Part shown: positions 9,324 to 27,299 of the stretch, in pieces
Numbering within the stretch: position 1 is the stretch's first letter
Layout of the letters: each line of letters starts with the position of its first letter
From: Luteitalea sp.
GTDB taxonomy: Bacteria; Acidobacteriota; Vicinamibacteria; Vicinamibacterales; Vicinamibacteraceae
Assembly (NCBI GenBank): GCA_009377605.1
Contig: WHTT01000057.1
Span: 1 to 41,752, forward strand
Direction: 5' to 3'
DNA: 41,752 nucleotides
Translations under genes and position numbers: made by a program
Notes under the pieces: generated by a model
What the model was told of the DNA's origin: nothing
What the model saw: the letters and a program-made list of their open reading frames with translations, nothing else
Database searches by the model: none

Positions 9324-9352
9324 TTGACAGGTCGCGGTCGTGCGACCATAAT
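9324..9352 (+). promoter_or_regulatory. Sigma-70 promoter with palindromic operator, ahead of the first TonB receptor
   Basis: TTGACA (9324-9329), 17 bp and CATAAT (9347-9352) form a near-consensus promoter. The spacer contains the perfect inverted repeat GGTCG-TG-CGACC (9336-9347). The overlapping TCGT-GCG-ACCA (9338-9348) fits the TGNT-N3-ACCA pattern, with one change, seen at 21677, 21837 and 27203. The receptor ATG is 187 bp downstream, which leaves a long leader. Confidence 0.65.
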
Positions 9353-9538
9353 CCCGCCTTCAGATACCACATATCGACACCATTGCGCGGTGGGCGCGCC
9401 TTGGCCCGTCGCGGAGCCTTTTCACCGTCACGACGCAGCTGCTCCATCTGATGTCGCAGTCGATCGTGAGATCGTGCCCGCGCCCTGGGCCACGCGCGCC
9501 CACGAGCCGGGCATGGGCCTCACAAGGGGAGGTCTTCC

Positions 9539-12500
9539 ATGTCGATTCGCGCTTCGGTCATAACGAGCCTCGTTCTTCTCGTGCTGGCGGGACGACCAGC
9601 TGGCGCGCAGTCTACCTTCGGCGCCATCACCGGCCTGGTCACCGATAGCTCCGGGGCTGTCGTCCCCGGTGCGACGGTTGTCGCCGCCAACAGCGCGACC
9701 GGCATGCGCGCAGAAACCGTGACGTCGGACACGGGCAACTATGTGATTCCGAACCTGCAGGTCGGCTCGTACGAGCTCAGCGTCTCGCTGTCGGGCTTCC
9801 AAACGTGGTCGCGCACGGGCATCCATCTCGCCAGCAACGACAACGTGCGCATCAACGCCACGCTGGAGGTCGGTGCGGCGAGCGAGCGTGTCGAGGTGAC
9901 CGGAGGCCCGCCGCCTCTCAGGACCGAGTCCAGCGAAGTCTCGACGACGATGGACAACAAGCTGGTGCAGGACGTGCCGGTGGCGGTCGGGGGCATTGGT
10001 GGAGGGCTGCGCAACGCCTTCAGCGCGATGATGATGATGCCGCAAGTCAAGAGCGGCAATGGCCAAGGCGCGTGGGACGACTTTCAAATTGGAGGCGGGC
10101 AGCAGCACGACTGGAACGTCAGCGTCGACGGCCTGTCGGTCGAGATGGGCTGGCGCAATCACGTCGGCTACATGAATCGCGTCACGCCCTCGATAGACGG
10201 CACCGAGGAGTTCCGCATCGACACCGCGACGTTCAAGGCGGAAGACAGCCGTGCCAGCGGCGGCAAGATCACCGTGACTACCAAGTCTGGCACCAACGAG
10301 CTGCGCGGCAGCCTCTTCGATTACTACCAGAACGACGTCTTCAACGCGAACAGCTGGCTCAACAACAAGCTGGGCGTCGCGAAGCCGGATCAGGAGCGAC
10401 ACGACTTCGGCGGCACGCTCGGCGGGCCTGTCCTTATTCCAGGGCTGTACAACGGCAGAAACAAAACATACTTCTTCTTCTCCTATGAGGGGTATCGGGA
10501 ACCGCAAACATCCGGCGCGAGCGAGAGCACCGTTCCGCTTCCAGAGATGATCAACGGTGACTTTTCGAATTGGACAGATGCCGAAGGCCGCATGATTCCC
10601 ATCTATGACCCGGCAACGACCCGCAGCGACGGAGCGGGTGGCTTCGTTCGCGATCCGTTCCCCGGCAACACCATCCCGCAGGACCGGCTGAGCTCGCTCT
10701 CGAACGCCATCGCCGAGTACTATCCGGCGCCGAACGCCGAAGGGCTCGTCCGCAACTACGTTGCCCCTGGGACGGAGCCAAAGGAGCGGATCGAGAACTC
10801 CTTTCTGCTGAAGGTCGACCACAATTTCGGCATCAAGAATCGCCTGTCGGTGACCTACAACCAGAACGGCACGCACTTCACGAACGCTTACGACTCGGAT
10901 CCCGCCAACCCCAATAATTGGGCCGGTCTCGCCTATCCGCTCTCGGGCCGGAAGTATTTCAACGGCGATCAGTACTACGGTTACGTGTTCCGCCTGAACG
11001 ATACACACGTGTTCAGCCCCACCGTGGTCAATACCCTGACAATTGGCGCGCATCGCATCACACACCCGGAGCACGACATCACGGCCGAGCGTTTTGGTCA
11101 GAACTGGGGTGATATCCTCGGCGGCGCTGTGCCGAACAATCCCGGCTACAACACCAGCTTCCCTTCCGTGAACTTTCGAAACGACAACTTCACCGGCTGG
11201 GACAGCTCCAAGCTCTGGGACGAGTATCACACCGTCTACGGTCTGAACGAGAGCGTCACCTGGGTGAAGAACAATCACAGCTTCAAGTTCGGCTACAGCT
11301 ACCAGATGATGTTGCTCAACACGAACAACCGTAACACTTCGGCCGGCAACTTCGGGTTCGACCGCTTGAGCACTGCCATCCCCGGCGACAATACCGGCAC
11401 CTCGGGCAGCGCGTTCGCCAGCTTCATGCTCGGTGAGGTGTACAGTGGCGGTTTCACGGTGCCGAACACGCAAATGTTGCGGTTCCCTTACCACGCATTC
11501 TTCGTGCAAGACGATTGGAAGATTACGCCGCGGCTCACGATGAACGTCGGCATCCGTTACGAGATCAACATGAGCGCCTACGAGAAGCGTGACCGGATGT
11601 CCTACTTCGACCCGAATCTTCCAAATCCTGCGGCAAGCGGCTATCCGGGGGCGCTGCGATTCCTCGGTGACGGTGAAGGGCGCGAGGGGCGCCGCAACCT
11701 CTATGACAACGCGGGCGGCTGGGGCCCTCGACTCGGCCTGGCGTATCAGCTCAGTGACGACACCGTGATCCGCAGCGCTGGTGGCATCTTCTACGGAACC
11801 AACAAGGCTCCAGGCCTTGCGGGCGCCAATGACGGCTTCACCAACTCGCCAGGCTGGGATTCCCAGAACGAAGGTGTCACCTCTGCGTTCCAATGGGATG
11901 AGGGATTTCCGTCGTGGGAGGCGCCGCCGATTCTCGATCCCGGCTTCAGGGCTGGTTTCAGTGTGCCGTGGTACGACGCGGAAGAGGCCGGCCGGCTTCC
12001 GATGACGACGAGTTGGAACCTGGCGGTCTCACATGCTCTGCCCCACGATTTCGTGTTGGACGTGACGTATACCGGAAGCCGGGGCACTCACCTCCCCTCC
12101 GACCGCGTGAACGTCATGCAGATCGATCCGCAATACGCGCATCTCGGCGACTTGCTGAACAAGCCCATCGATGATCCAGAGGTGGTGGCGCTCGGCTTCG
12201 AGCCGCCGTTTGCGAACTTCAAGCAGCTCCTCGGCGACGCTGCGACGCTGGGGCAGTCATTGCGCGCCTTCCCGCAGTATCGGGGTGTCGGCACGGGCGG
12301 CATGATGAACCACAGTGGCAGCTCCTCGTACAACGCGCTGATCGTGAAGGGCACCAAGCGCTTCTCGGGCGGTCTCACGCTGCTTGCGAGCTATACCTGG
12401 TCGAAGCTCCTCACGGATGCAGACTCGTCGGATCCCTGGATTGCCGGCGTGGTGGGCAGCGGACGCGGCGCGGGAGCGGCACAAAACCACTACGACCGCC

Positions 12501-13099
12501 GACCGGAAAGATCCTACGGCGTCCTCGACCTGCCCCACGTCTTCAAGCTCACCGGCAGTTACGATTTACCCTTTGGCCGGGAGCGACGATACGTGAGCTC
12601 CGGCCTGATGAGCCATCTCGTCGGCGACTGGAACCTCAGCGCATTCACGTTCTACCAGAGCGGCTATCCCATGGGCGTTGTAGATGCCGCATATCAGAAC
12701 CATCTCCACGGCGGCCCCCCGCGCCCCAACGTCGTTTCCAACGATTGGCGGGCGCCGATCGCCGGTGACGAGTTCGACCCCTCGGTTGACAACTTCTTCA
12801 ACGTCGACGCGTTCGAGCGCCGGACCGATCCAGCCGCTGAGCCGTTTGGCAACGCGCCGCGCCTGAACGGCGAGACGCGATCGTTTCCGACGTTTCGCAC
12901 GAATCTCTCGATCAGCAAGGCGTTCCCGATGCTGGCGCGCGCGCGCGCCGCAGTGCGGCTCGAGATCTTCAACCTCTTCAACCAGAAGACATGGGCGAAT
13001 CCTGGTACCGATCTCTCCAACAGTGAGTTTGGCGTGATCACCAACACCGCCGGCGGCAGCAATCGCACCATGCAGCTTGGCCTGAAGATCGACTTCTAA
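9539..13099 (+). CDS. TonB-dependent receptor with N-terminal carboxypeptidase-regulatory domain (Oar type)
   Basis: The protein has 1186 residues. The ATG follows AGGGGAGG at a good distance. The signal peptide ends near residue 23 (RPAGAQS). A carboxypeptidase-regulatory-like fold follows at about 27-115 (GAITGLVTDSSGAVVPGATV, GNYVIPNLQVGSYELSV), then a plug region (about 120-250). A long beta-barrel completes the protein and ends in the outer-membrane-type terminus LGLKIDF. Such receptors import bulky ligands, often glycan fragments, across the outer membrane using TonB energy. There is no SusD-like lipoprotein beside it. The mannonate-dehydratase homologue starts 63 bp downstream on the same strand, which suggests a sugar-acid-containing ligand. 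The probable promoter is at 9324. Confidence 0.88.
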   Translation: MSIRASVITSLVLLVLAGRPAGAQSTFGAITGLVTDSSGAVVPGATVVAANSATGMRAETVTSDTGNYVIPNLQVGSYELSVSLSGFQTWSRTGIHLASNDNVRINATLEVGAASERVEVTGGPPPLRTESSEVSTTMDNKLVQDVPVAVGGIGGGLRNAFSAMMMMPQVKSGNGQGAWDDFQIGGGQQHDWNVSVDGLSVEMGWRNHVGYMNRVTPSIDGTEEFRIDTATFKAEDSRASGGKITVTTKSGTNELRGSLFDYYQNDVFNANSWLNNKLGVAKPDQERHDFGGTLGGPVLIPGLYNGRNKTYFFFSYEGYREPQTSGASESTVPLPEMINGDFSNWTDAEGRMIPIYDPATTRSDGAGGFVRDPFPGNTIPQDRLSSLSNAIAEYYPAPNAEGLVRNYVAPGTEPKERIENSFLLKVDHNFGIKNRLSVTYNQNGTHFTNAYDSDPANPNNWAGLAYPLSGRKYFNGDQYYGYVFRLNDTHVFSPTVVNTLTIGAHRITHPEHDITAERFGQNWGDILGGAVPNNPGYNTSFPSVNFRNDNFTGWDSSKLWDEYHTVYGLNESVTWVKNNHSFKFGYSYQMMLLNTNNRNTSAGNFGFDRLSTAIPGDNTGTSGSAFASFMLGEVYSGGFTVPNTQMLRFPYHAFFVQDDWKITPRLTMNVGIRYEINMSAYEKRDRMSYFDPNLPNPAASGYPGALRFLGDGEGREGRRNLYDNAGGWGPRLGLAYQLSDDTVIRSAGGIFYGTNKAPGLAGANDGFTNSPGWDSQNEGVTSAFQWDEGFPSWEAPPILDPGFRAGFSVPWYDAEEAGRLPMTTSWNLAVSHALPHDFVLDVTYTGSRGTHLPSDRVNVMQIDPQYAHLGDLLNKPIDDPEVVALGFEPPFANFKQLLGDAATLGQSLRAFPQYRGVGTGGMMNHSGSSSYNALIVKGTKRFSGGLTLLASYTWSKLLTDADSSDPWIAGVVGSGRGAGAAQNHYDRRPERSYGVLDLPHVFKLTGSYDLPFGRERRYVSSGLMSHLVGDWNLSAFTFYQSGYPMGVVDAAYQNHLHGGPPRPNVVSNDWRAPIAGDEFDPSVDNFFNVDAFERRTDPAAEPFGNAPRLNGETRSFPTFRTNLSISKAFPMLARARAAVRLEIFNLFNQKTWANPGTDLSNSEFGVITNTAGGSNRTMQLGLKIDF

Positions 13100-13162
13100 T
13101 CACCATGCTGTCCACTTATCTGTCTCCGCACGTAGCGCCGGTCGTCTCAAGGAACGTGCGCT

Positions 13163-14293
13163 ATGAGCTCTGATTTCTCCCGTCGCAGGCTGCTCGAAGC
13201 CATGGGTGCGGCAGCCGTCCTGGCATCGACGTCGCCTGCGCGCTCACAGCCGACTCAACCGACCTTCTCCCGGATGCCGTCCGAGGGCAAGGACACGCCC
13301 AAGATCTGCCTGGGAGCATGGGGACGGATCGATGACGCCGGGATGCGCGCGTTCAACCAGATTGGCGTCGACTACGTCCTGACCGGTGGGCCGAGGAACA
13401 CTCCGTGGGAAGAGGCGGAGCTCCGCGCCCGGATCGAGCGCTTCAAGGCGGCGGGCCTGACGCTGTGCAACATGATGATCTCCGGGTTCAACGACGTGAT
13501 CTGGGGCAAGCCAGGCGCGGACCAGCAGATCGAGGCTGTGATCGCCTCCATTCGTGCAGCGGGAGCCGCCGGCTTACCGGTCATCGAGTACAACTTCTAC
13601 GCCCATCGCCTCACGGAGGGCTACAAAGAGGAGCTCGGCCGCGGCGGTGCCGGCTACACCGCGTACGACTATGAACAATCGAAGGCCCTGCCGCCACGCG
13701 AGGATGTAGGAACGCACACCCGCGCCGAGCAACTGAAGCGTGCCGAACAGTTCCTGAAGGCCATCGTGCCGGAAGCGGAAAAGGCCAACGTCCGCTTGGC
13801 TCTGCACCCCAACGATCCGCCGGTGCCCCTCAGCCGCGGCTCCGAACAGATCATGGCCACCTTCGAGCACTGGAAAGAGTACCTGGATCTCGTGAAGAGC
13901 CCGTACAACGGTATGACGTTCGACTGCGGCGGCGTGACGCGGGAGCTGGGCGAGGATCCGGTGGCCGTCTGTCGCTACTTGGGTGAAAGGGACTGCATCA
14001 ACCACGTTCACTTTCGCAACGTCGTGGTCAGGACACCGTATGTCGACTACACGGAGGTGTTCCCAGACGAGGGCCAGGTGGACATGTTCGGGGTGATGAG
14101 AGAGCTCGTTCGGCAGAAGTATCCGCGCGCTATCTACCCCGAGCACCCGCGTGCGATCGACCTGGACCGGGATCGCGGCAAGATCGAGAATCAATATCCC
14201 GGCGGCGGCGGCTTCGCGGGTGAGATCTACAACGTCGCCTATACCAGGGCCATGCTACAGGCGGCTCTCAGCGGAGCCGAAGCACCAATGTGA
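13163..14293 (+). CDS. Mannonate dehydratase (UxuA) family TIM-barrel protein with Tat-like signal
   Basis: The protein has 376 residues. The N-terminus SRRRLLEAMGAAAVLAS, followed by ARS, is a textbook twin-arginine signal. UxuA-like landmarks follow: LALHPNDPP (215-220), Cys255 in TFDCGG, NHVHFRNV (281-287), FPDEGQVDM (300-308) and AYTRAMLQAA near the end. UxuA converts D-mannonate to 2-keto-3-deoxygluconate with a divalent metal in the cytoplasm. A Tat signal implies that this homologue is exported folded, possibly with its metal. The sequence around Cys255 departs from the usual UxuA pattern, so dehydration of mannonate is not certain. An epimerase-like role on another sugar acid is possible. 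It is probably co-transcribed with the TonB receptor upstream and converges on the hexuronate transporter with only 13 bp between. Confidence 0.75.
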   Translation: MSSDFSRRRLLEAMGAAAVLASTSPARSQPTQPTFSRMPSEGKDTPKICLGAWGRIDDAGMRAFNQIGVDYVLTGGPRNTPWEEAELRARIERFKAAGLTLCNMMISGFNDVIWGKPGADQQIEAVIASIRAAGAAGLPVIEYNFYAHRLTEGYKEELGRGGAGYTAYDYEQSKALPPREDVGTHTRAEQLKRAEQFLKAIVPEAEKANVRLALHPNDPPVPLSRGSEQIMATFEHWKEYLDLVKSPYNGMTFDCGGVTRELGEDPVAVCRYLGERDCINHVHFRNVVVRTPYVDYTEVFPDEGQVDMFGVMRELVRQKYPRAIYPEHPRAIDLDRDRGKIENQYPGGGGFAGEIYNVAYTRAMLQAALSGAEAPM

Positions 14294-14306: not shown

Positions 14307-15572
14307 TTAGGTGCGCGCGTATTCCGGCTCGGACACTACCAGCGGCTCCACGCGACGGATGGTCGCCAAGATCAGGAAAAACGCCGCGACGTGAAACGTG
14401 CTGACCAGCCCAAAGACCGTCGCGTACCCAAATCCGTTGTCCAGCAGGTACCCAACCACCAAGTTGAAGACGACCCCGCCAAGCGCGCCGCCGAGGCCCA
14501 CCAGCCCCGCTACGGATCCCACCACACTTCGCGGAAAGATGTCCGCCGGCACGATCATGACCAGGGTCGACCATGATTGCTGGCCGAAGAAGGCGATGCT
14601 GAAGAGGACAATCGCCCATTCCACCGGCACCTGCGGCACGAAGACGATCAGCGGCATCACGGCCGCGCTCGCGCCCAACGCCACCTTGCGAGACACGTTC
14701 AACGACTTGCCGCGGCCCAGCAGCCAGCCGGAGAACCAGCCGCCGGCGATACAGCCAACGCCGGCCGCCGCGTACGGGATCCACGCGTAGGTCCCCACCT
14801 GTGACGTGTCGAAACCGCGCACGTCGTACAGATACTTGGGCAACCAGAAGAGATAGAAGTACCAAGCCGCATCGCTGAGAAACTTTGCGAGCACGAGTCC
14901 CCACACCTGGACGAACGAGAACAGACGAAACCAGGAGATCGGGGCCGCCGTGGCGCTCGCGTCCGCGAACACTTCCTCGATTTCGCTGCGCTCGCTGGTG
15001 CTCAAGCGGGCATGCACGGCAGCCGGAAAATAGTCGCGCAGCCACCAGACGGTCCAGATGAGACCCACCACGCCAACGGCGAGGAACACCCAGCGCCAGC
15101 CAGCGCCGGCAATGATGGCCGCGATCGCCGGCGGGGCGATCACCGCCCCAACCGCCGTGCCGGCGTTGATGATCCCCATGGCCAGGGACCGCTCGCGCGC
15201 GGGAAACCACTCGGCGACCGCCTTGGTCGCGGCGGGAAATCCGCCGCCTTCGCCCACGCCGAGCAGGAATCGAAAGGTGGCCAGCGTGGCGAAACTGGTG
15301 GCCAGGCCGTGAGCCGCGCACGCCAACGACCAGAAGACCATGATGAGCGCGAATCCCCGCCGGGTGCCCAGCAGATCGAGCAAGCGGCCCCCGCCGGCGT
15401 ACATCGCCGCATACGCGATCAAGAATGCCGCCTGCAGCTGCGAGAACTGGGTATTGGAGATCGGGATGTCGCGCTGAATCGCCGCAATCGCCACCGGGAC
15501 CGTCTGACGATCCAAATAGCTGATCGCGATAGCCGCGCTGATCAGGAACGCAATTTGCCACCGTAGTCGCAT
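14307..15572 (-). CDS. exuT: Hexuronate transporter, MFS anion:cation symporter family (ExuT-like)
   Basis: The protein has 421 residues with twelve hydrophobic helices. Family signatures are SYLDRQTVPVAIAAIQRD in helix 1, FRFLLGVGEGGGFPAATKAVAEWFP, the GINAG/GTAVGAVIAPP region, and AWYFYLFWLPKYLYDVRGFD at the start of the second half. ExuT-type carriers bring glucuronate and galacturonate into the cytoplasm with protons. The start lies 12 nt after the stop of the GntR regulator on the same strand, so the two form a regulator-transporter operon. The gene ends 13 bp from the convergent mannonate-dehydratase gene. A related substrate, such as another sugar acid, cannot be excluded. Confidence 0.85.
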   Translation of the reverse strand: MRLRWQIAFLISAAIAISYLDRQTVPVAIAAIQRDIPISNTQFSQLQAAFLIAYAAMYAGGGRLLDLLGTRRGFALIMVFWSLACAAHGLATSFATLATFRFLLGVGEGGGFPAATKAVAEWFPARERSLAMGIINAGTAVGAVIAPPAIAAIIAGAGWRWVFLAVGVVGLIWTVWWLRDYFPAAVHARLSTSERSEIEEVFADASATAAPISWFRLFSFVQVWGLVLAKFLSDAAWYFYLFWLPKYLYDVRGFDTSQVGTYAWIPYAAAGVGCIAGGWFSGWLLGRGKSLNVSRKVALGASAAVMPLIVFVPQVPVEWAIVLFSIAFFGQQSWSTLVMIVPADIFPRSVVGSVAGLVGLGGALGGVVFNLVVGYLLDNGFGYATVFGLVSTFHVAAFFLILATIRRVEPLVVSEPEYART

Positions 15573-15584
15573 GGCGATCTTTTC

Positions 15585-16364
15585 TCAGCGCTTCCGCGCT
15601 CGCAGCCGGGTCGGCTGCATCGCGAGCTCTGAGATCCGGTTCTGAAGATGCAGGCTTTGCTGCCGTTCGTTGACACGGGCAAGCAGAATGTTGACGTCGG
15701 CCAGGTGCTCGGCCGTGCGCTTGCGGGCTTCCTCCGGATTGCCTTGGGCAATCGCGGCGTAGATGCGCTGGTGGAACTGCAACGTGTGATCAACCGATAC
15801 CAGGTGTGAGGTCATCTCGATGAGGCTCTGGAGCGACCGATGGACGACCGTGAACAGCATGCTGCACACGCGGCTCCCCGCGGCCTCGAAGATGATCTTG
15901 TGGAACTCCAGATCGTGCTGCGTGATCAGGACGTGATGCCCTTCGCTCGCCTTCATCGCCTCCATTTCGTGGCGCAACGCGGCGTGATCCTTGGCCGTCG
16001 CGTGAATCGCCGCGCGCGCGGCGAGCTGAGGCTCCACGATAATGCGTGCCTCCATGAGCTCCTGGAACGAGATCCCGTTCAGCAGGATGAGGAACTCCAG
16101 CGGCTCGCCGAGCACGGAGCTGGCCCCACTGGTGAGATACGTTCCGTCGCCCACGCGCTGCGAAATCACGCCAATGATCTCCAGCACCTTCAGTGCCTGG
16201 CGCAGCGATGAGCGACTGACCTGGAATTGCTCCGCCAGCTCGCGCTCCGCCGGCAGCCGGGCGCCAGAGCGAAGCGTGCCCTCCGAGATGAGCCGCTTGA
16301 ACGTCGTGAGTACCCGTACCGTGACGTCTTCCTTGGAGACCGATGCTGGCCGTCCGTGTGGCAT
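15585..16364 (-). CDS. GntR-family transcriptional regulator, FadR/FCD subfamily
   Basis: The protein has 259 residues. The winged helix-turn-helix spans about 15-80 (LRSGARLPAERELAEQF, SRSSLRQALKVLEIIGVI, RVGDGTYLT). An all-helical FCD ligand domain follows (about 95-230), with the His-bearing helices LEFHKIIFEAAGS, HQRIYAAIAQGNPEEARKR and AEHL that usually hold a metal. Relatives such as UxuR, ExuR and LldR bind sugar acids or hydroxy acids and sites of the form TGGT-N3-ACCA. Such sites occur at several promoters in this window, so this protein is the best candidate to control the TonB, GH and dehydratase genes. It is followed after 12 nt by the hexuronate transporter. The palindrome at 16420-16430 lies 56 bp upstream and may serve autoregulation. 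Confidence 0.85.
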   Translation of the reverse strand: MPHGRPASVSKEDVTVRVLTTFKRLISEGTLRSGARLPAERELAEQFQVSRSSLRQALKVLEIIGVISQRVGDGTYLTSGASSVLGEPLEFLILLNGISFQELMEARIIVEPQLAARAAIHATAKDHAALRHEMEAMKASEGHHVLITQHDLEFHKIIFEAAGSRVCSMLFTVVHRSLQSLIEMTSHLVSVDHTLQFHQRIYAAIAQGNPEEARKRTAEHLADVNILLARVNERQQSLHLQNRISELAMQPTRLRARKR

Positions 16365-18245: not shown

Positions 18246-21200
18246 CTAAAAGATGTATTTCAAGGCGAACTGGATCTGTCTCGCCTCGTTCGACGTGCTG
18301 GTCACCCGCCCGCCAGCCGCTGTGTCGACCTGCGTGTTCGGCGCGGCGAAATAGGGTGAGTTGAGGAGGTTGAACGCCTCCGCCCGGAGCTCGAGCGTCG
18401 AGCCGGCAGTCACGGCGAACTGTTTGAACAGCGAGGCATCCACGTTCCACTGGTGCTCGGCCCTGAGGATCCTCCTGCCGGAATCGCCGAACGTGAACTC
18501 ATCGGGTACAGCGAAGGCGCTCTTGTCGAACCAGGCGTCCAACGTTGGATTGTCAGCTTTGCCCGCACCAATCCGGTTGGGCCGCTGGCCGCCAACGCCG
18601 ATATTGGCGACGTCGCGCGATATCGTGGGTGTGAACGGGAGGCCGCTGCGGTAGTTGACGATGCTCTGCAACTGCCACCCGCCGACGAGGGCGTGGGCGA
18701 GGCCCCCTGCGTCCCCGAGCAGCGGCTTACCCCTTCCGAACGGCAACTCGTAGCCGAAGCTCAACGCAAGGCTATGGGGAACATCGAAGACCGACGGTCC
18801 CCGATCGTAGGTGAAGTTCCCACCCGCTTCTGGCGCGGGCTGCCTCGTCAAGCTCTTCGAGAACGTGTACGACACGAGATACCAGAGGCCCGCAGACGCT
18901 CTCCGCTGGAGCTTGGCTTGCAGAGCGTGATAATCGCTCGACAGGGCCTGACTGTGAACGCTCACGTTGCCGAAGCGCGGATACGGTCTGCGATCCTGAA
19001 CGCTCCCTGGCCCAGCCTCCGGAATGTTGATCGGCTCGGCCTGCTGCTGGTGCGAGCCCTTGGTGCCGACGTAGTTCAGCTCCAACATCGTGCCGCCGAC
19101 GAGCTCCTGCTGAATCCCAAGGTTCCAGCGCTGGTCATAGCCCATGCTCGCGTTCAACGGGAGCGGGTTCCAGTTCACGGTTCCCACCGAGGCGCCGAAG
19201 GGCGCGCCGAGATAGAAGTCTTCCAACGTTCGTGTGGGCACGACGTTCTGGGTGGCTGAGACGCTCTCGCTCAGACTGAACGGAATGAAGTGGAAGTTCA
19301 GGCGCCCGCTCGTCCCTTCCGACTCGTAGAAGACGCCGTAGCCGCCACGAACGACCGTGCGGTCGCCGTACGGCCGCCACGCAAACCCAAAGCGGGGCGC
19401 AAACTGCCGCTTGTCGGTTGCGGTGAGGTTGAGCGGCACGCCTGCCTGACTGCTGGTCTGGATCAGGTCCCCGAACAAGGCGGAGCCGACGTCTGCGAGA
19501 GGCTGGGCATCGAGATCGATCTGGTCGGTCTTGCTGGAGACGATGATCGGTCTGTCCCGGCTGGGATCGAATGCCGCCGCCTGGTTCCGGTACCCGGTGA
19601 GCCAGGGCGTGAACTCGTATCGCAAGCCAAGATTCAGCGTCAGCGTATTGGTGACCTTCAGGTCATCCTGGACGAACACATGCCAATAGGTTCCGGACCC
19701 GCCCCACCAGGTGGCTGGATTCGAGCGCGTGGAGTTGGCCGGATAGCCGAGCATCCAGTCGGCGAACCCGTCGCCGGTGCCAGAAGCAGAAGAGGGATTC
19801 TGCGTCATCACGCCGGTGAAGTCGAAGACGCCGTTGTGGCTCCGCGCGTCGGTGAACAGGATGTTCCGGCGATAGATGCGCCCGCCGAACTTGAGAATGT
19901 GCTTGCCCATGATCCACGTGAGGTTGTCGGTGATCTCGTACTCGCCCCGGTCCTGCCATTTCGGCCGCCCGTCGCCCGCGTTTCCCGAGAAGCCCTCGTA
20001 GCCTGAGAACGAGAAGGCCGGCAAGCTGGCAATGTTCGGGTCCTGAATGCCTTCCAGGCCGGTGACGCCGGCCTGCTGCAGCAGTCGCGTGCCCTCGCCT
20101 TGGAAGTACGCCGTGGACCGATACTCGCCGTACATGCGGCTGATCCGAAGCTCGTGAATCATCCGGGAGCCGAGATTCGACGTCATCGCAACCGCGAGGT
20201 TCCAGGCCGGGCCCTCCAGGCGGGTGGACCCGAGTGCCGGGAACGCGCTGGGCGTCTCCTCGGCCGTCTGGTGGCGGCTGAACCGCGCAAACAGCTTGTT
20301 GTTGGTCGTGATCTGCTGATCCAATCGAATCGTCACCTGGTTCGCGTCGAACTCGGTGGTCGGCGTGGACACGAACGTCCCGTCTGGCGAGTTCGGCAGG
20401 GGGATGTACTGGTTGAAGTACTGCGCCTGAGGCGAGAGCCGATCTTGCGGGATGACGTTCCCCGGGAACTGACCCCGCACCGCGCCGCTGCTGGAGGGAC
20501 CCGGCACAGTGGTCAGCGGATCGTAGATCGGCGCAAGGCCACTGAAGTCCCCCATTCGCTGCGCCGCCGTGGGGACGATGCTGACGTCCACGTTGCCTTT
20601 CTTCTGTCGCTGCCCCTCATAGCTGACGAAGAAGAACGTTCTGTTCCTGCCGTTGTAGACGCCTGGAATCCAGAGGGGACCGCCAAGCGTGCCGCCGAAT
20701 TGGTTGCGCTCCAACGGCTCCTTCGTCTGCGCGAAGAAGTTCCGCGCATCGAATGCGTCGTTGCGGACGAACTCGAACAGGCTGCCGTGAAACGCGTTCG
20801 TGCCAGACTTCGTCGTGGCGTTGAACGTCCCGCCGGCGCCGTGAAACTCGGCTGAGTAGGCATTCTGCTGAATGCTGAATTCCTGCAGGGCGTCGATCGA
20901 CGTTTGGATCCAGGTACCGCCTTGGTGTTCCTCGGTGATGTCGACGCCGTCGAGGAGGAACCTCGTCTGCCAGCCGCTCACGCCCCCGATGACGTTGCCG
21001 TTCACCGCTTCCGGCCGCACCGTCTGCACGTTGCCGGTCGGCGCGAGCAGTGTCGCCCCTGGGGTGAGCCGTGCCAGCTCGTGGAAGCCCCTGCCATTCA
21101 ATGGCAAATCCACGATTTGCTCGTTGGAGATGACCTGGCTCAGCGAGGCGGACTCGGTGTTGAGCAAGGGAACATCAGCGGTGACCTGCACCTCGGTGGA

Positions 21201-21560
21201 TATCGTGCCGAGGTCGAGCGCCAGATCCACGCGAGCCGACTGACCGACCGTCAAAACGATGCCGTCCCGGACGGTCTTTTGAAAGCCCTCGAGCACCGCG
21301 CTCACACGGTAGGTCCCAGGGTCGAGCGGCGTGACGACGTAGTTGCCCTGAGAATCGGTGACCACCGTCCTGGAGAGGTTCGTGGCGAGATTCGTCACGG
21401 TGACGGTAGCCCCGGGAATGCCAGCCACCTGGGCATCAGAGACACTTCCCAGGATGCGCCCGGACTGGAGCTGCGCAACGAGTGGGGTGCCGCCGGCCCA
21501 GAGCCAGACAACGAGTAGTAGCGGAAGGGCGTGGCACCGCTTCCGAGCTCCGGCGTGCAT
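18246..21560 (-). CDS. TonB-dependent receptor with N-terminal carboxypeptidase-regulatory domain (second copy)
   Basis: The protein has 1104 residues. ATG at 21560 was chosen because AGGAAGGAA precedes it and a signal peptide follows (CHALPLLLVVWLWAGGTPLVAQ); the frame continues to 21644 without these features. The regulatory beta-sandwich spans about 35-120 (GRILGSVSDAQVAGIPGATV, GNYVVTPLDPGTYRV). The plug holds VDLPLNGRGFHELARLTPGA, and the barrel ends in QIQFALKYIF. Like the copy at 9539 it has no SusD partner, and it is diverged from that copy. It is followed by the broken GH3 gene. Its promoter, TTGACA-N18-TATCAT, overlaps a candidate GntR operator. The ligand is probably a plant- or microbe-derived oligosaccharide. 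Confidence 0.88.
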   Translation of the reverse strand: MHAGARKRCHALPLLLVVWLWAGGTPLVAQLQSGRILGSVSDAQVAGIPGATVTVTNLATNLSRTVVTDSQGNYVVTPLDPGTYRVSAVLEGFQKTVRDGIVLTVGQSARVDLALDLGTISTEVQVTADVPLLNTESASLSQVISNEQIVDLPLNGRGFHELARLTPGATLLAPTGNVQTVRPEAVNGNVIGGVSGWQTRFLLDGVDITEEHQGGTWIQTSIDALQEFSIQQNAYSAEFHGAGGTFNATTKSGTNAFHGSLFEFVRNDAFDARNFFAQTKEPLERNQFGGTLGGPLWIPGVYNGRNRTFFFVSYEGQRQKKGNVDVSIVPTAAQRMGDFSGLAPIYDPLTTVPGPSSSGAVRGQFPGNVIPQDRLSPQAQYFNQYIPLPNSPDGTFVSTPTTEFDANQVTIRLDQQITTNNKLFARFSRHQTAEETPSAFPALGSTRLEGPAWNLAVAMTSNLGSRMIHELRISRMYGEYRSTAYFQGEGTRLLQQAGVTGLEGIQDPNIASLPAFSFSGYEGFSGNAGDGRPKWQDRGEYEITDNLTWIMGKHILKFGGRIYRRNILFTDARSHNGVFDFTGVMTQNPSSASGTGDGFADWMLGYPANSTRSNPATWWGGSGTYWHVFVQDDLKVTNTLTLNLGLRYEFTPWLTGYRNQAAAFDPSRDRPIIVSSKTDQIDLDAQPLADVGSALFGDLIQTSSQAGVPLNLTATDKRQFAPRFGFAWRPYGDRTVVRGGYGVFYESEGTSGRLNFHFIPFSLSESVSATQNVVPTRTLEDFYLGAPFGASVGTVNWNPLPLNASMGYDQRWNLGIQQELVGGTMLELNYVGTKGSHQQQAEPINIPEAGPGSVQDRRPYPRFGNVSVHSQALSSDYHALQAKLQRRASAGLWYLVSYTFSKSLTRQPAPEAGGNFTYDRGPSVFDVPHSLALSFGYELPFGRGKPLLGDAGGLAHALVGGWQLQSIVNYRSGLPFTPTISRDVANIGVGGQRPNRIGAGKADNPTLDAWFDKSAFAVPDEFTFGDSGRRILRAEHQWNVDASLFKQFAVTAGSTLELRAEAFNLLNSPYFAAPNTQVDTAAGGRVTSTSNEARQIQFALKYIF

Positions 21561-21675
21561 GGTCGTTCCTTCCTGGGCCGACATCCGCGATGCCGGTCCC
21601 GCAGGGGTGGACTGCTGCCATGGCGCTGGCCTTGCGGCGAACACCGAGCAGTCCAGAGGGAGTGTTGAAGGCGTA

Positions 21676-21705
21676 ATGATACGACCAATAGAAGGCGGGT
21701 GTCAA
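21676..21705 (-). promoter_or_regulatory. Promoter and operator of the second TonB receptor
   Basis: On the minus strand TTGACA (21705-21700), 18 bp and TATCAT (21681-21676) form a good sigma-70 promoter. The candidate operator TGGT-CGT-ATCA (21687-21677) ends inside the -10 box. The 15-mer AATGATACGACCAAT (plus strand) recurs exactly at 27201-27215 in the same position relative to another promoter. Confidence 0.75.
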
Positions 21706-21818: not shown

Positions 21819-21848
21819 TTCCAATGATCCCTTACTTGGTTCTACCAT
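21819..21848 (+). promoter_or_regulatory. Promoter and perfect TGGT-N3-ACCA operator ahead of the rhamnonate dehydratase-like gene
   Basis: TTCCAA (21819-21824), 18 bp and TACCAT (21843-21848) form a plausible promoter. TGGT-TCT-ACCA (21837-21847) is a perfect GntR/FadR-type palindrome. It ends in the -10 box exactly as at 21676 and 27202. The start codon is 38 bp downstream. Confidence 0.6.
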
Positions 21849-21885
21849 TACGACGATCAAACGGGACGGACCGGAAGGCAGCCAG

Positions 21886-23058
21886 ATGAAGATTACAGAG
21901 ATGCGCACCAGGGTAGTTGAATGGCGCGGGGAGCACGTCTCTCCTCAGCCGCATTTCTGCACCAATCCCATGGACCTCCTCAACCTCGATGGGGATTCGA
22001 TGGCCGGCTTCCGCTTCCACGGCTGGCTCATCGTCGAGATCTTCTCGGACGATGGTCACGTCGGCATTGGCAATGCGGCACTCGCGCCACGTGTCACGAA
22101 GCAGGTCATCGACCTCTATCTCGAGCCGCTCTTGATCGGGCAGGACCCATTCGACACCGAGCTCTTGTGGCAGCGCATGTATCGCCACACGATGGCGTTC
22201 GGTCGAAAGGGCATCGGCATGGCGGCGATCAGCGCCGTCGATATCGCCATCTGGGATTTGCTGGGGAAGGCGCTCGGGCAGCCGGTGTTTCGCCTCCTGG
22301 GAGGTCGAACCAAGAAGCGCATTCCGGTGTACGCCAGCCGCTTGTACAGCCAGCCGCTGGAACAGCTCGCGGCTGAAGCCGAGGGTTACAAGCGGGATGG
22401 CTACAGAGCGATGAAGCTCCGCTTCGGCTGGGGACCGGTGGACGGAGCCGCCGGGATGCAGAAGAACGTGGAGCTGGTGCGCACCGTACGAGACGTGATC
22501 GGCTACGACATCGACTTGATGGCGGACGCCTACATGGGCTGGACGCTCGACTATGCCTGCCGCATGCTGCCACGGCTCGAGCCCTATCAGCTACGGTGGC
22601 TGGAAGAGCCGGTCATTCCGGACGACATTGCCGGCTACGCCGCGCTGAAGGCGCTCGGCACGGTGCCCATCGCTGGCGGTGAGCACGAGTTCACGCTGTA
22701 CGGCTTCCGCCAGCTCCTGGATGCGCACGCGGTTGATTACATTCAGTTCGATACCAACCGGGTAGGCGGCATCAGCCAGGCGCGGAAGATTGCCGCGCTC
22801 GCGGAGGCCTACGCTGTGCCGGTCATCCCCCACGCCGGCCAGATGCACAATTTTCACGTGGTGATGGCCAGCTTGAACGCTCCCATGGCGGAGTTCTTTC
22901 CGGTCGTGAACGTCGAGGTGGGCAACGAGCTCTTTTGGTACATCTTCAAAGGTGAGCCGACACCGGTGAACGGCTTCATCGATCTCGACGACACCGTACC
23001 CGGCTTCGGCGTGACGATTCAGGAAGCGGCCCTCGACCGATTCGAGGTCATGGAGTAA
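21886..23058 (+). CDS. L-rhamnonate dehydratase-like enzyme, enolase superfamily
   Basis: The protein has 390 residues. ATG at 21886 is preceded by GGAAGG with 8 nt spacing; the open frame upstream of it lies over the promoter region. It has an N-terminal capping domain and a TIM barrel with Lys177 in MKLRFG, metal ligands Asp214 (ADAYMGWT), Glu240 (WLEEP) and Glu266 (GGEHEF), and His316 (PHAGQMHN). The ending MAEFFP, VEVGNELFWYIFKGEP is characteristic of the rhamnonate dehydratase group. These enzymes convert L-rhamnonate, and sometimes L-mannonate or L-lyxonate, to the 2-keto-3-deoxy acid. The gene is transcribed away from the TonB receptor, with a separate operator. Its last 40 bp overlap the 3' end of the convergent GH3 gene. 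Confidence 0.82.
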   Translation: MKITEMRTRVVEWRGEHVSPQPHFCTNPMDLLNLDGDSMAGFRFHGWLIVEIFSDDGHVGIGNAALAPRVTKQVIDLYLEPLLIGQDPFDTELLWQRMYRHTMAFGRKGIGMAAISAVDIAIWDLLGKALGQPVFRLLGGRTKKRIPVYASRLYSQPLEQLAAEAEGYKRDGYRAMKLRFGWGPVDGAAGMQKNVELVRTVRDVIGYDIDLMADAYMGWTLDYACRMLPRLEPYQLRWLEEPVIPDDIAGYAALKALGTVPIAGGEHEFTLYGFRQLLDAHAVDYIQFDTNRVGGISQARKIAALAEAYAVPVIPHAGQMHNFHVVMASLNAPMAEFFPVVNVEVGNELFWYIFKGEPTPVNGFIDLDDTVPGFGVTIQEAALDRFEVME

Positions 23059-25343
23059 GCAGAAGTGCGCGAGGCCTGTTCGCCCGCCGTCCGTTCACCA
23101 GGCGTCGTCACCTCGAACCGGCCTTTCAGGCGGATGTCCTCCGACGAGCTGCCCACCAGCACCTCGAACGCTCCCGGCTCCACGACCCACGCTTGCTTCG
23201 GTGTGTCCCAGAACGCCAGATGTTCGGCTGACACGGTGAAGCTGACGGTCTTCTTCTCGCCAGGTTGCAGCGCGAGTCGCTCGAACGCCACGAGCTGCTT
23301 GGTCGGACGTTTCACGCCGGCCTCGACGTCGTGCACATAGAGCTGAACGACCTCGTCACCGGCGCGCTGGCCGCTATTCTGCACATCCACCTGAAGCTGC
23401 ACTCGTCCGTCGCCCGGAATCCGCGTGGAGCCTAAGCTCAAGTTCGTATAGTCGAACGTGGTATAGCTGAGCCCGTGGCCGAACGCATGCTCCGGCTGGC
23501 CATCGTAGTACAAATAGGTGAATCCCTTGGTGACGTCGTACTCATCCATAGGAGGCAGCTGTTCGAAGGTGTCCCCCGAGCCCGAATTGGAGGCGGCCCT
23601 GTTGTCGTACACCGTATATGGCAGTCTGCCACCCGGGTTGTAGTCGCCGAACAACACCTCGGCAATCGCGGTGCCTCCTTCCTCACCCGCCCAGAACATG
23701 TCGAGCACTGCCGGCGCCGCGAGTGGCTCATCATCGCCTCCGCCACCGACGAGTGACACCGGGCCGCCGTTGAGCAGGACGATCACCGTCCTGGGGTTGG
23801 CATCCAAGACCCTTCGCGCGAGATCCATCTGTACCGGTGGCAGGCCCAGAAACGAGCGGTCGAGCCCTTCCCGCTCCAGCATTTCGTTGGTGCCGACGAA
23901 GAGAATGGCGACGTCCGCCTTCTTCGCCACGGCCACGGCCTCGGCCGCATTCGCCTCCGCATCTTCCGATTCCACGATGCCACTGCCGCGTGCATAGAGC
24001 ACCCGAGCGCTCGTCTCCACCGCCTGCCGAATGCCGTCGAGTGGCTTGACGAACGTCGAGTACAGCCCCGTATAGTTCGGTCCCGTCTGGGCGAAATCGG
24101 CAAAGGGGCCAATCACCGCGATGGTCTCGAGGCTGTTCCTGTCCAGCGGCAGGAAGTGGTCCTCGTTGGTCAACAGCACGATCGATTCCCGGGCCGCGCG
24201 CAGCGCGAGCTGCCGGTGCGCTGGGGAATCGATCACGTCCGGAGAAATCTTGGTGTAAGGCACCATCTCGGGCGGATCGAGCTCCCCCAACCGGAGCCTG
24301 ACCTTCAGAACCCTGCGCAAAGCCCGGTCTATGTCCTTCTCGGTCAGGAACCCTTGCTCGACGGCTTTCGGCAGCACGATCGCGTAGTCGCGATTGTCGA
24401 GGTCGCTACCCGCGAGAATCGTCTTCGCGGCGGCTTCCTCGATCGTCGTGTACTTCCTGTGCCCGGTCACCAGGCGGGGCACGGCGCCGCTATCGGGCAC
24501 CACGAACCCATCGAACTTCCACTCGCCGCGGAGGACGTCGGTCAGGAGCCACTTGTGCTCGGCGCCCGGCACATCGTTGATCGCGTTGTAGGACGACATG
24601 ATTGATTGTGCCTTCCCCTCCACGATCCCCGCCCTGAAATGAGGGAGGAAGTACTCTCTCAGCATGCGCTCGCTCACGTCGACGTCGAGCTTGATTCGAT
24701 CGCGCTCCTGATTGTTGACCGCGTAGTGCTTGAGCGTCGACGCCAGCTTCAGGTACTTCGGGTGGTCCCCCTGCATGCCCTTCACGTACGCGACAGTCAT
24801 CCGTGACACCAGGAACGGGTCTTCGCCGAACGCCTCCCAGATCCTGCCCCAGCGCGGGTCGCGGCTGATGTTGATCACCGGCGAGCGATAGACCAGGCCG
24901 TTGTGCCGTACGCGCTCCCCGCTCGCCGTCGTTGTCACGAGCTGCCCGCGCGGGTCTGGCTCCGTCGTGCCACTGACGGTGGGCCAGTAGTTGTGGACAG
25001 CCCTCCCCTCGTCGGCGATGGCGGCCGCCACCTCGTGCACCAACTGCGGATTCCAGGTCGCCGCCATGCCAATCGGCACCGGGAACATCGTCGTCGGCTT
25101 GGTCCAGACGATCCCGTGCAGGCTTTGGTTCCAGCCATTCATCACGGGAATCTTCAGGCGCTCGATGGCGGGGGCGGTCGTGCTCAGCAGCGACGTCTTC
25201 TCCTCCAGGGTCAAGCGCCGCATCAGGTCCTCGACTCGTTGGTCGATTGGCTGCGACGGGTCGAGGTAGATGGGCTGCTGACCGCTCACCACGAGCGGAG
25301 CGGTCACGATCACGATGAGAATCGCTGGCCAGAAGCGCTTCAT
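23019..25343 (-). CDS. GH3 family glycoside hydrolase (beta-glucosidase/beta-xylosidase type)
   Basis: The protein has 774 residues and is intact. A signal peptide (FWPAILIVIVTAPLVVSGQQP) is followed by the (beta/alpha)8 domain with RDPRWGRIWEAFGEDP, LKHYAVN (Lys205-His206) and the nucleophile Asp284 in VVPDSGAV. Next come the alpha/beta sandwich with GPFADFAQTGPNYTG and VLYARGSGI, and a C-terminal fibronectin-III-like domain (VDVQNSGQRAGDEVVQLYVHD). GH3 enzymes release beta-linked sugars from the non-reducing end with retention. The start is 15 bp after the GH39 stop, so they form an operon, and the enzymes may act in sequence on one oligosaccharide in the periplasm. The broken gene at 16498-18212 is a close paralogue. 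Sugar specificity cannot be read from the motifs alone. Confidence 0.9.
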   Translation of the reverse strand: MKRFWPAILIVIVTAPLVVSGQQPIYLDPSQPIDQRVEDLMRRLTLEEKTSLLSTTAPAIERLKIPVMNGWNQSLHGIVWTKPTTMFPVPIGMAATWNPQLVHEVAAAIADEGRAVHNYWPTVSGTTEPDPRGQLVTTTASGERVRHNGLVYRSPVINISRDPRWGRIWEAFGEDPFLVSRMTVAYVKGMQGDHPKYLKLASTLKHYAVNNQERDRIKLDVDVSERMLREYFLPHFRAGIVEGKAQSIMSSYNAINDVPGAEHKWLLTDVLRGEWKFDGFVVPDSGAVPRLVTGHRKYTTIEEAAAKTILAGSDLDNRDYAIVLPKAVEQGFLTEKDIDRALRRVLKVRLRLGELDPPEMVPYTKISPDVIDSPAHRQLALRAARESIVLLTNEDHFLPLDRNSLETIAVIGPFADFAQTGPNYTGLYSTFVKPLDGIRQAVETSARVLYARGSGIVESEDAEANAAEAVAVAKKADVAILFVGTNEMLEREGLDRSFLGLPPVQMDLARRVLDANPRTVIVLLNGGPVSLVGGGGDDEPLAAPAVLDMFWAGEEGGTAIAEVLFGDYNPGGRLPYTVYDNRAASNSGSGDTFEQLPPMDEYDVTKGFTYLYYDGQPEHAFGHGLSYTTFDYTNLSLGSTRIPGDGRVQLQVDVQNSGQRAGDEVVQLYVHDVEAGVKRPTKQLVAFERLALQPGEKKTVSFTVSAEHLAFWDTPKQAWVVEPGAFEVLVGSSSEDIRLKGRFEVTTPGERTAGEQASRTSAYSMTSNRSRAAS

Positions 25344-25358
25344 GGCGTCGGCAGCCTT

Positions 25359-27125
25359 TCACCACTCGATGACCAAGAGGGAGACCGCACGGCGTGGCAG
25401 TGTGAAGCGGACCGTGGCGTGTGACCGTGCAATGTCGATCGTGGACGGCCCATCCATCAACGCGAGCTGGCTCGCCTTCTCGAGCGCGGCGTACTGCGCC
25501 TGGTCCGGTTTTGCCGGCGAGCCCATGCGCTGCCACGCCGTGTAGGCGTTGCTGTGCTCGGCGTCCACACGGAAGTGGCTGAGGCGCGCCGGCTGCTCCG
25601 TCTCGGGTAGGCCGTCCATCGTCAGCTCTACTTCCGTCGCTGGCCCCGGCACGTCATCGTCATGGTAGTGCCACGCGAGGATGGTGATTCGATCATCGTC
25701 GCGGCTCGCGAGCGCGGACACATCCGGCTGTCCACGGACCCCGTTCTCGATGATCTCGTCCAACGGTACGGCGGCATCGCTGGTCGCCGCCACGCGCCGG
25801 CGGCCCATCTGACTGAACATCCGAAAGACGTTCAGGACCGGCTTGTCGACGCCGTTTGTCGCCAGCGAGCGAAAGCCAGCGAAGTACGGCTGGTCCTCGA
25901 ACTCGAAGGCCCACGTGAGGGCACCTTCGAAATTGACGTCGTAGCGGTCCGCGAGGTCGTGCTTCCGCGCAAAGCTTGCCGCCGTGTAGCTCGAGTACAT
26001 CGTCGTGTTGCGGTACGCCAGCTGCTCCCCCTGGCACGCGGCACAGCCCTCGGGATCCGACTCGCCAATCACTATCGGTGTGGACTTCAACTCTGGATAC
26101 GAGGCGATCAGGCGGAAGCCTTCGTCAATCGTGGCGAGCTGATTGGAAATCCCCATGCGGACGTGACCGTCCTCGAACGAGGGGCGTCCCTTGGCGTGGA
26201 ACGACACGAAGTCGAGCGGCGTCCCCGTACGACCGGTGGCGTGATTCTTGCCGCGCAGGACGTGCTCGATGAAGCTGCGCATGAAGTCTCCGCCGTGGCC
26301 AGCCGTGTCAGGACCGCCAACCCGCGCCGTCGGGAGCGCCCGGCGCACTCCCGCGATGGCGTAGTCGTGCAGTTTGTGGAACTCCTCCGGCGTGCCGCGC
26401 CAGTAACCGATGTTCGCCTCGTTCCACGCCTGCCAGTACCACTGCTCCACTTCCTCGCGGCCGTACTTCTCGATGACATGCTTGGTCCAGGCGTACGCGA
26501 GATCTCCCCACTTCTCGTAGTCCTTGGGCGGATAGGCCCAACCGGTGTAGATCTCGTCGTACTTGGCCTTCGGTGTCCACTTGTGCTGGTACGGCTCCGG
26601 CTGGACCGACAGATCCTTTGGCATGAAGCCAATCTGGACGTAGGGCCTGACGCCCCCCTCCAGATACGCGTCGAAGATGCGGTCGAGGATCGTCCAGTCG
26701 TAGATGGGGTTGCCTTGCGCATCCTCACGATACGCGTTGGTCGATCCCCACTTCAGCGCCGGCGTGCCGTCGCCAGAGGTCAGTAGGTTGTGCGTCCGAA
26801 AGTAGACCTGCTGCGGTGACAGCCGTCCCAGCTCGGTGAGGAGCTTCTTACCGTTCTTCATGTAGGCGTAGTTGGGCTCGTCGGCACCAAAGAACCGCCA
26901 GATGCGGCGCAGGGCGCCCAGCTCCTTGCCGGCATCCACGTGGATCGCCACCGGAAACGTGTCGGATTGGGGCGCTTGGAGCGTCCCGGGAGCTGCGGTC
27001 AGTGCGCCAGCCAAGGCGAGGAAGCTGAAACCGGCCGCGAGCGCTAGACGTGCGACGGTGTGCGCCGCCACGCCGCGACGGGTCGCCGCGGTCATGGCGG
27101 GCTGGCGATGTCTCTCGAGCATCAT
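25359..27125 (-). CDS. GH39 family glycoside hydrolase
   Basis: The protein has 588 residues. The start at 27125 (two adjacent ATG codons) has GAGG upstream; the longer open frame to 27230 lies over the promoter and is rejected. A signal region (ARLALAAGFSFLALAGAL) precedes a TIM barrel. GH39 landmarks are WYWQAWNEANIGYW, with acid/base Glu236, and TPIVIGESDPEG, with nucleophile Glu355. A C-terminal beta-sandwich follows (VELTMDGLPETEQPARLSHFRVD). GH39 contains beta-xylosidases, alpha-L-iduronidases and related exo-enzymes. With a hexuronate transporter and sugar-acid dehydratases in the same region, either activity would make sense. It is the first gene of an operon with GH3 and is preceded by a promoter whose -10 box overlaps the shared operator. 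Confidence 0.82.
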   Translation of the reverse strand: MMLERHRQPAMTAATRRGVAAHTVARLALAAGFSFLALAGALTAAPGTLQAPQSDTFPVAIHVDAGKELGALRRIWRFFGADEPNYAYMKNGKKLLTELGRLSPQQVYFRTHNLLTSGDGTPALKWGSTNAYREDAQGNPIYDWTILDRIFDAYLEGGVRPYVQIGFMPKDLSVQPEPYQHKWTPKAKYDEIYTGWAYPPKDYEKWGDLAYAWTKHVIEKYGREEVEQWYWQAWNEANIGYWRGTPEEFHKLHDYAIAGVRRALPTARVGGPDTAGHGGDFMRSFIEHVLRGKNHATGRTGTPLDFVSFHAKGRPSFEDGHVRMGISNQLATIDEGFRLIASYPELKSTPIVIGESDPEGCAACQGEQLAYRNTTMYSSYTAASFARKHDLADRYDVNFEGALTWAFEFEDQPYFAGFRSLATNGVDKPVLNVFRMFSQMGRRRVAATSDAAVPLDEIIENGVRGQPDVSALASRDDDRITILAWHYHDDDVPGPATEVELTMDGLPETEQPARLSHFRVDAEHSNAYTAWQRMGSPAKPDQAQYAALEKASQLALMDGPSTIDIARSHATVRFTLPRRAVSLLVIEW

Positions 27126-27201
27126 GGGTGTCCTCGAGTGGGTCGTGGGCGGAACTGGAGACCGGTCTCCAAGATTCCGAGATATGTTGCGCGAGGCGGG
27201 A

Positions 27202-27230
27202 ATGATACGACCAATGTGAGGTGAAGTCAA
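27202..27230 (-). promoter_or_regulatory. Promoter and operator of the GH39-GH3 operon
   Basis: On the minus strand TTGACT (27230-27225), 17 bp and TATCAT (27207-27202) form a good promoter. TGGT-CGT-ATCA (27213-27203) overlaps the -10 box. The surrounding 15-mer AATGATACGACCAAT (27201-27215, plus strand) is identical to that at 21675-21689. The leader to the start codon is about 70 nt. Confidence 0.75.
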
Positions 27231-27288
27231 ATGCAGGATTGGTCGATATCAGGCGATAATCAGTACGTTATCCCCCAGAACGCCCTTA

Positions 27289-27299
27289 TGGTCTTACCA
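27289..27299. promoter_or_regulatory. Perfect TGGT-N3-ACCA site without an obvious promoter
   Basis: TGGT-CTT-ACCA fits the candidate GntR operator. It is 59-69 bp upstream of the GH39 -35 box, counted along the minus strand, and could be an auxiliary site for that operon. No matching -35/-10 pair was seen at it on either strand. Confidence 0.45.

Follow-up and report, generated by a model that had tools for sequence, protein, structure and literature searches.

SusC/SusD loci are controlled by SusR, by hybrid two-component systems or by extracytoplasmic function (ECF) systems. Regulons under FadR-subfamily members of the GntR family, of the form discussed here, are well known. For example, DgoR of E. 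coli represses the dgo promoter through a pair of inverted repeats that lie close together and overlap it, and its effector is D-galactonate (PMC12288454). For DgoR, LldR and others, 3 nt are given between the GT and AC of the operator; R28, S40 and G59 of the regulator correlate with a G/C pair at position 2 of TKGT, and the arginine of the recognition helix that contacts G is Arg-38 (PMC4494728). HypR and HutC, two GntR regulators of some Proteobacteria, have regulons predicted to include a TonB-dependent transporter (PMC5343134). Here, we analyse a stretch of 41,752 nucleotides from the acidobacterium Luteitalea sp. (contig WHTT01000057.1 of assembly GCA_009377605.1), referred to as the window, in which an operator-like palindrome lies before the genes for an Oar-type TonB-dependent receptor (TonB_B), for a mandelate racemase/enolase-type dehydratase and for a glycosidase operon (GH39-GH3). 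A GntR regulator with an FCD domain is encoded in the middle of the locus.

The window is the entire contig C57 of a draft genome of 6.79 Mb in 382 contigs (G000). An initial annotation of its sequence had proposed a sugar-acid regulon with a shared operator. The operator prediction is sound: the operator is of the FadR type, the mid-locus GntR/FCD protein is its likely binder, and genes of a sugar-acid type lie in the locus. The regulon is narrower in extent than first claimed. The reading that we consider probable is a DgoR-like local repressor regulon, in which the GntR protein acts on four operators and controls TonB_B, the dehydratase and the GH39-GH3 operon. A literature search that fell short of most subscription journals found no published receptor regulon of this form for Acidobacteria.

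An operator motif at four intergenic sites

The pattern TGNT-N3-ACCA had been placed at 21677-21687, 21837-21847, 27203-27213 and 27289-27299. These are exactly its places in the window, which holds no other, and all four are intergenic with re-estimated gene starts. Two of the sites are full TGGT-N3-ACCA palindromes and two have the core TGGT-N3-ATCA. They lie near their proposed target genes and agree with the FadR/FCD operator form TKGT-N3-ACMA. When the pattern is extended to the 15-bp palindrome ATTGGT-N3-AYCATT, the same four sites are the best four words of the window.

O1, 21675-21689, minus strand: ATTGGTCGTATCATT; the -10 box of the TonB_B promoter (TATCAT, 21681-21676) lies within it.
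O2, 21835-21849, plus strand: CTTGGTTCTACCATT; lies 36 bases before the dehydratase start codon and is aligned with a weak -10-like TACCAT.
O3, 27201-27215, minus strand: 15-mer identical to O1 (ATTGGTCGTATCATT); the -10 box of the GH39-GH3 promoter (27207-27202) lies within it.
O4, 27287-27301, minus strand: ATTGGTAAGACCATA; lies 86 bp upstream of O3, measured between centres.

The four sites form a real shared motif. Scored with a matrix over the whole window, coding DNA included, they reach 22.3, 22.3, 20.0 and 19.3 bits, and the next word reaches 11.8; among the intergenic words of the window, the lowest of the four (19.3 bits) is followed by a word of only 8.2 bits. In a leave-one-out test, the symmetrical matrix was built without the tested site and without its identical twin. 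The background was 43,261 intergenic 15-mers drawn from 21 stretches elsewhere in the genome (contigs C12, C41 and C3 excluded), and each of the four sites then scores higher than every one of them. A wider set of 122,477 words, with overlaps counted, takes in C12, C41, C3 and stretches chosen for their sites; there, 3 or 4 words per test reach the score of the tested site. The high scorers of this set lie on C41 (present twice; before a receptor) and in stretches L018, L205 and L026. The word in L018 (18.0 bits) probably lies in coding sequence, the gene start having been called late, and was not counted as an operator.

Two further places had been put forward as members of the motif, and both fail by their matrix scores. 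The site at 9338-9348 on the plus strand (TCGT-GCG-ACCA, before the receptor gene TonB_A), said to fit with one change, scores 1.8 bits, and 137 of the 43,261 background words are equal or better. The site at 16420-16430, before the GntR gene, was called related; it scores -0.4 bits, a value equalled or exceeded by 296 background words. Among the 4,758 intergenic words of the window, chance alone would supply about 15 words at the first score and about 33 at the second. Therefore, the motif precedes one TonB receptor gene and not two: TonB_B, the dehydratase and the GH39-GH3 operon keep their sites, and TonB_A with its UxuA-like gene is not supported as part of the regulon.

Promoters under the operators

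In the intergenic regions before TonB_B and GH39, a scan for consensus promoters returns one promoter each, where shuffles expect 0.1 and 0.2.

21676-21705, minus strand: TonB_B promoter, TTGACA-N18-TATCAT, 11/12 consensus positions.
27202-27230, minus strand: GH39-GH3 operon promoter, TTGACT-N17-TATCAT, 10/12 consensus positions.

At both promoters the operator extends over the -10 box and the adjoining end of the spacer. Three sites had been described as ending in a -10 box. The scan bears this out for 21677 and 27203; at 21837 the geometry is the same as at O1 and O3, with TACCAT and a poor -35 box, and the scan did not list a promoter there; over the fourth site, 27289 (O4), it listed none either.

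With two of four sites on -10 boxes and a short pattern only mildly unusual in number, it could be asked whether the motif is a mere promoter element (the extended -10 of strong promoters), or a product of chance and selection by eye. This is very improbable: O4 has the motif and no listed promoter, ATTGGTCG falls outside the -10 hexamer, none of the 43,261 words from the 21 stretches matches any of the four scores, and in the 6.79-Mb draft the exact matches of WTTGGTNNTAYCATT are limited to the O1 and O3 promoters, two matches in all. With up to one mismatch, WTTGGTNNTAYCATT, a pattern derived from these same sites, has five matches genome-wide, three of them in the window. A copied promoter as the source of the identical O1 and O3 15-mers was also considered. 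It is ruled out by their flanks, which are unrelated (15/60 bases alike).

The GntR/FCD regulator and its relatives

15585-16364, minus strand: GntR/FCD regulator, 259 aa; helix-turn-helix (HTH) residues R28, R38, S40 and G59; proposed binder of O1-O4.

By its domains the regulator belongs to the FadR/FCD subfamily (Pfam GntR 59.9 bits, cut-off 27; FCD 76.4 bits, cut-off 24.3). Its NCBIfam scores are LldR 119.7 of a curated cut-off of 311, PdhR 105 of 330, UxuR 64.9 of 442 and ExuR 57.2 of 396. These are far under the cut-offs, and therefore it is none of these equivalogs; no DgoR model is among the NCBIfam matches listed for it. Residues were compared against a sequence that we take to be E. 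coli FadR. The regulator has R28, S40 and G59, the residues that go with a G/C pair in TKGT. Of 13 FCD matches in the genome, 12 could be aligned, and four of these have the full R28/R38/S40/G59 set: the window protein, two proteins of contig C12 (C12a and C12b) and one of contig C1.

It is conceivable, on account of this shared set, that the operators are real and are bound by C12a, C12b or the C1 protein, which would place the genes of the window in a wider sugar-acid regulon and leave the local GntR with other targets. We hold this to be unlikely. In its favour, the cluster on C12 has similar sites: it encodes a GntR protein with the residue set, a DgoT-like permease, a dehydratase and a TonB receptor, and two palindromes lie between two divergent oxidoreductase genes. 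The cluster, which counts equally for the reading that we favour, recurs on contig C8 of the sister genome G001, where both sites are conserved at 14/15 bases. This conservation is less striking than an identity of 33% with gaps counted would make it, because the aligned intergenic letters are 60% identical (249/416, gaps left out) and 18 of 262 gapless 15-column windows, those covering the sites included, are equally conserved.

G001 also bears on the question from the other side. It encodes equivalents of C12a and C12b whose HTH sequences are nearly the same, yet its GH39-dehydratase locus is free of the operator core: within 35 kb around it there is no TGGT-N3-ACCA and no TGGT-N3-AYCA. The locus itself is kept, with GH39 (83%) adjoining the dehydratase (76%) and a piece of the DgoT-like permease between them, and its FCD protein is a different one, only 31% identical to the GntR of the window and devoid of S40 and G59. 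The best intergenic word of this locus, AATAGTATTATCATA, lies just before the gene for this other FCD protein and scores 15.8 bits with the full matrix; a second, weaker match scores 11.9 bits. With such a near-match, the two species differ in core letters and not in presence or absence of a site, and the argument that G001 provides against C12a, C12b and C1 as binders is not strong. A related operator that differs in its core may be present at the G001 locus. As a single comparison, the contrast mildly backs a link between the regulator and the core letters.

Two other features of the G001 locus were seen on stretch L230 (contig C37). At 8961-8980, before the FCD gene (8986), a perfect palindrome, TATCATATGATA (8969-8980), is overlapped by the 15.8-bit match (8961-8975); this segment is a candidate operator of the replacement regulator. 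A second GntR-HTH gene, not on the FCD list, lies at 15862-16653.

The palindrome in the genome

Statistics on the perfect palindrome come from about 1.04 Mb (overlaps counted) of the 6.79-Mb genome, much of it chosen around sites. Here 19 of 51 examined TGGT-N3-ACCA sites are intergenic, as compared with 39 of 263 for a control set of 35 words matched in composition (Fisher p = 4e-4). The difference remains when a direct-repeat pair on contig C34 is dropped (17/49, p = 4e-4), and five other palindromes give 4/30 (p = 0.02 against 19/51). The majority of the sites, 32 of 51, lie in coding DNA; their density is nonetheless higher between genes. Another eleven stretches of 20 kb, picked for their position regardless of what they contain (9.7% intergenic), are without TGGT-N3-ACCA. 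According to the initial annotation, a motif as common in coding regions as in promoters would speak against an operator. The comparison with the control words goes the other way, and that with the reversed word, given below, does not separate the two.

Proposed mechanism and genes of the locus

In the mechanism that we favour, a dimer of the GntR FadR/FCD protein would bind the four ATTGGT-N3-AYCATT operators. On O1 and O3 the dimer would hide the -10 boxes and block RNA polymerase at the TonB_B and GH39-GH3 promoters, which we infer to be repression rather than activation. A like block at O2 would act on the dehydratase gene. O4, 86 bp or about eight helical turns above O3, may cooperate with O3 and so strengthen repression of the glycosidase operon. 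The presumed inducer, a sugar acid, would enter through the receptor, be freed by the glycosidases and be imported by the DgoT-like permease. Its binding to the FCD domain would release the repressor, and the dehydratase would then channel the acid into catabolism.

Several points weigh against this reading, among them the near-match in the G001 locus and the three other FCD proteins, C12a, C12b and C1, which with the same recognition residues could bind too. TGNT-N3-ACCA has 6 strand-wise matches in the window (the two full palindromes count twice) where chance gives a mean of 2.45, and 6 of 100 shuffles reach 6; therefore the short pattern is weak by itself. Across the genome TGGT-N3-ACCA occurs at 54 places and the reversed pattern at 99, so the palindrome is not over-represented in number, and in the sampled DNA 5 of 17 copies of the reversed word are intergenic, a share indistinguishable from 19/51 (p = 0.39). 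The promoter at O2 is weak. The regulator's own promoter is without a good site, its best word scoring 8.2 bits at 16398. Among 60 relatives there is no near-full-length relative of the GntR protein above 38% identity, and none above 36% in a pattern-based scan of genome contigs, which finds close relatives only. With no close ortholog of the regulator, a phylogenetic footprint of the window's own sites is not possible.

The genes on which the mechanism draws, and their neighbours, are as follows. Genes were called with Pfam, NCBIfam and a codon-usage caller trained on the window. Outside the window the borders come from the caller, which missed a receptor gene of contig C3 in a longer stretch (L003) and caught it in another (L242).

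8010-9248: major facilitator superfamily (MFS) permease.
9539-13099: TonB_A, Oar-type TonB receptor.
13163-14293: UxuA-like TIM-barrel protein.
14307-15572, minus strand: DgoT-like MFS permease, directly downstream of the regulator.
16498-18212, minus strand: broken GH3 copy.
18246-21584, minus strand: TonB_B, Oar-type TonB-dependent receptor, proposed O1 target; open reading frame (ORF) listed from 21644, start re-estimated by codon usage.
21886-23058, plus strand: mandelate racemase/enolase-type acid-sugar dehydratase, proposed O2 target.
23019-25343, minus strand: GH3 glycosidase, closest to beta-xylosidases and second in the operon.
25359-27125, minus strand: GH39 glycosidase (beta-xylosidase / alpha-L-iduronidase family), start re-estimated; first gene of the operon, under O3 and O4.

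From the family matches of the dehydratase, the DgoT-like permease and the GH39 and GH3 enzymes, the substrate class is likely a sugar acid. The permease scores 159 bits to 6e9n, a D-galactonate transporter, and 245.8 of 395 against the corresponding NCBIfam model. The nearest solved proteins to the dehydratase are 3sqs (547 bits), 3stp (544 bits) and 3ssz (539 bits), of which 3stp is labelled a putative galactonate dehydratase; the protein is under the cut-off for L-rhamnonate dehydratase (244.8 of 393). Like GH3, the GH39 enzyme is nearest to beta-xylosidases.

Compared with the intact GH3 (23019-25343), the broken copy lacks residues 125-309 and has a frame change at the junction. The two proteins are 68% identical over residues 1-124 and 71% identical over residues 310-765, and a 483-aa ORF at 16498-17949 is the remnant of the broken copy. 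A gene for myo-inositol oxygenase lies at 30043-30870 on the minus strand (Pfam MIOX 366.5 bits), 2.9 kb from the GH39 gene. Enzymes of the MIOX family make D-glucuronate from inositol. No operator-matrix word near this gene is found among the window's top-scoring intergenic words. At 1136-1260, between two genes, a run of 8-bp units (GGGATCAA / GGGATCGA) surfaced as repeated 15-mers.

TonB receptors and the absence of SusD

The initial annotation had described the locus as free of SusD, and the genome as a whole bears this out, as neither PF07980 nor PF14322, both SusD families, has a match in it; by this measure no SusD stands beside the receptor, as it would in a SusCD-type locus. What the window does have together is a TonB receptor, glycosidases, an inner-membrane permease and a regulator, the makeup of a SusD-less carbohydrate locus, for which we take 'CUT-like' to be a suitable name. 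Oar-type receptors are abundant in G000, with at least 65 matches to PF25183 (65 scored of 202 first-look candidates). To our knowledge, their cargo is mostly unknown.

The link with receptors could also be the primary one, the sites being operators of a non-GntR regulator tied to TonB receptors and not to sugar acids. G001 offers some reason to think so. In 16 stretches of this genome, selected for pattern matches, 10 of 17 intergenic sites of at least 12 bits are upstream of a TonB receptor gene, compared with 16.7% of promoter-side positions; several of these sites share one intergenic region and are therefore not independent. Contig C68 of G001 has several sites and no gene from the whole-genome FCD list of G001. 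Against this, the N3-spaced TGGT/ACCA palindrome is the published form for the FadR subfamily (PMC4494728). Of 62 regions upstream of receptor genes in G000, 2 contain the perfect palindrome, including the region in the window (O2), and the word ranks 24th among palindromic words there. Such a regulator is very unlikely. The receptor count covers 60 of the 63 listed genes outside the window, all but C3:110529, C41:7192 and C137:4187; of these 60, three have next to no upstream DNA. The idea that the motif is an element of receptor promoters at large was tried on these regions and rejected for G000: 2 of 59 usable regions hold TGGT-N3-ACCA, where 0.12 are expected per shuffle. In the site-biased stretches of G000, 3 of 11 sites of at least 12 bits are upstream of a TonB receptor gene. 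As judged from these upstream regions, the operator is a feature of some receptor loci and not of receptors in general.

Three further observations concern receptor promoters. At C3:109591 (L003), outside the 62 regions counted, a perfect TGGT-N3-ACCA lies between two divergent Oar-type receptor genes, with a poor 15-bp fit (1.3 bits). Contig C68 of G001 (33 kb, seen in two pieces, L275 1-15000 and L276 from 22000) has several receptors and eight intergenic AAAGGT/ATGGT-type sites above 9 bits, two of which are 16 bp apart before a receptor. Before the receptors of contigs C41 (G000) and C78 (G001), a conserved block, AATGGTCTAACAAGTTGAAGCGAG (L243 8347-8370; L289 9382-9405), outdoes the palindrome TGGTATGACCA in conservation. 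The latter is itself kept before this pair of receptors at 12/15 bases, a value equalled in 40 of 205 gapless windows.

Across the genus, SusD-less Oar-type receptors might lie in parallel sugar-acid loci, each with its own FCD regulator and with operators at or close to the receptor promoters; where species exchanged regulators, the core letters of the matching operators might have changed with them. The instances behind this suggestion are the window and the G001 locus, the kept pairs C12/C8 and C41/C78, and the site-rich G001 contigs C68, C19 and C24. We put it forward tentatively and regard it as rather doubtful. For the window itself, a validated operator would tie one receptor to defined catabolic genes and to an effector class, and the substrate of that receptor would therefore become testable. 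The three other FCD regulators of the genome are open to the same treatment.

Comparison with known systems

The closest likeness of the window is to DgoR of E. coli. In both, an FCD regulator lies beside a DgoT-like permease, an enolase-type dehydratase belongs to the locus, and inverted repeats with N3 spacing overlap the promoter. The half-site differs, being TGGT here and TTGT-N3-ACAA in IR1 of DgoR (PMC12288454), and the proposed targets in the window include an outer-membrane receptor and glycosidases, unlike those of DgoR. The LldR/PdhR/GlcC group shares with the regulator its best NCBIfam matches (LldR and PdhR) and the N3 spacing listed for the group (PMC4494728); the context here is glycan and sugar acid rather than lactate and pyruvate, and the scores are far under the cut-offs.

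As for the HypR and HutC regulons, they too join a GntR regulator with a predicted set of a TonB-dependent outer-membrane transporter and catabolic genes. They belong to other taxa and serve hydroxyproline/proline and histidine, and HutC is of another GntR subfamily. Lastly, the window resembles SusC/SusD loci in bringing together a TonB-dependent receptor, glycosidases, an inner-membrane permease and a local regulator. It differs from them in that the genome has no PF07980/PF14322 match and in that the regulator here is of the GntR family.

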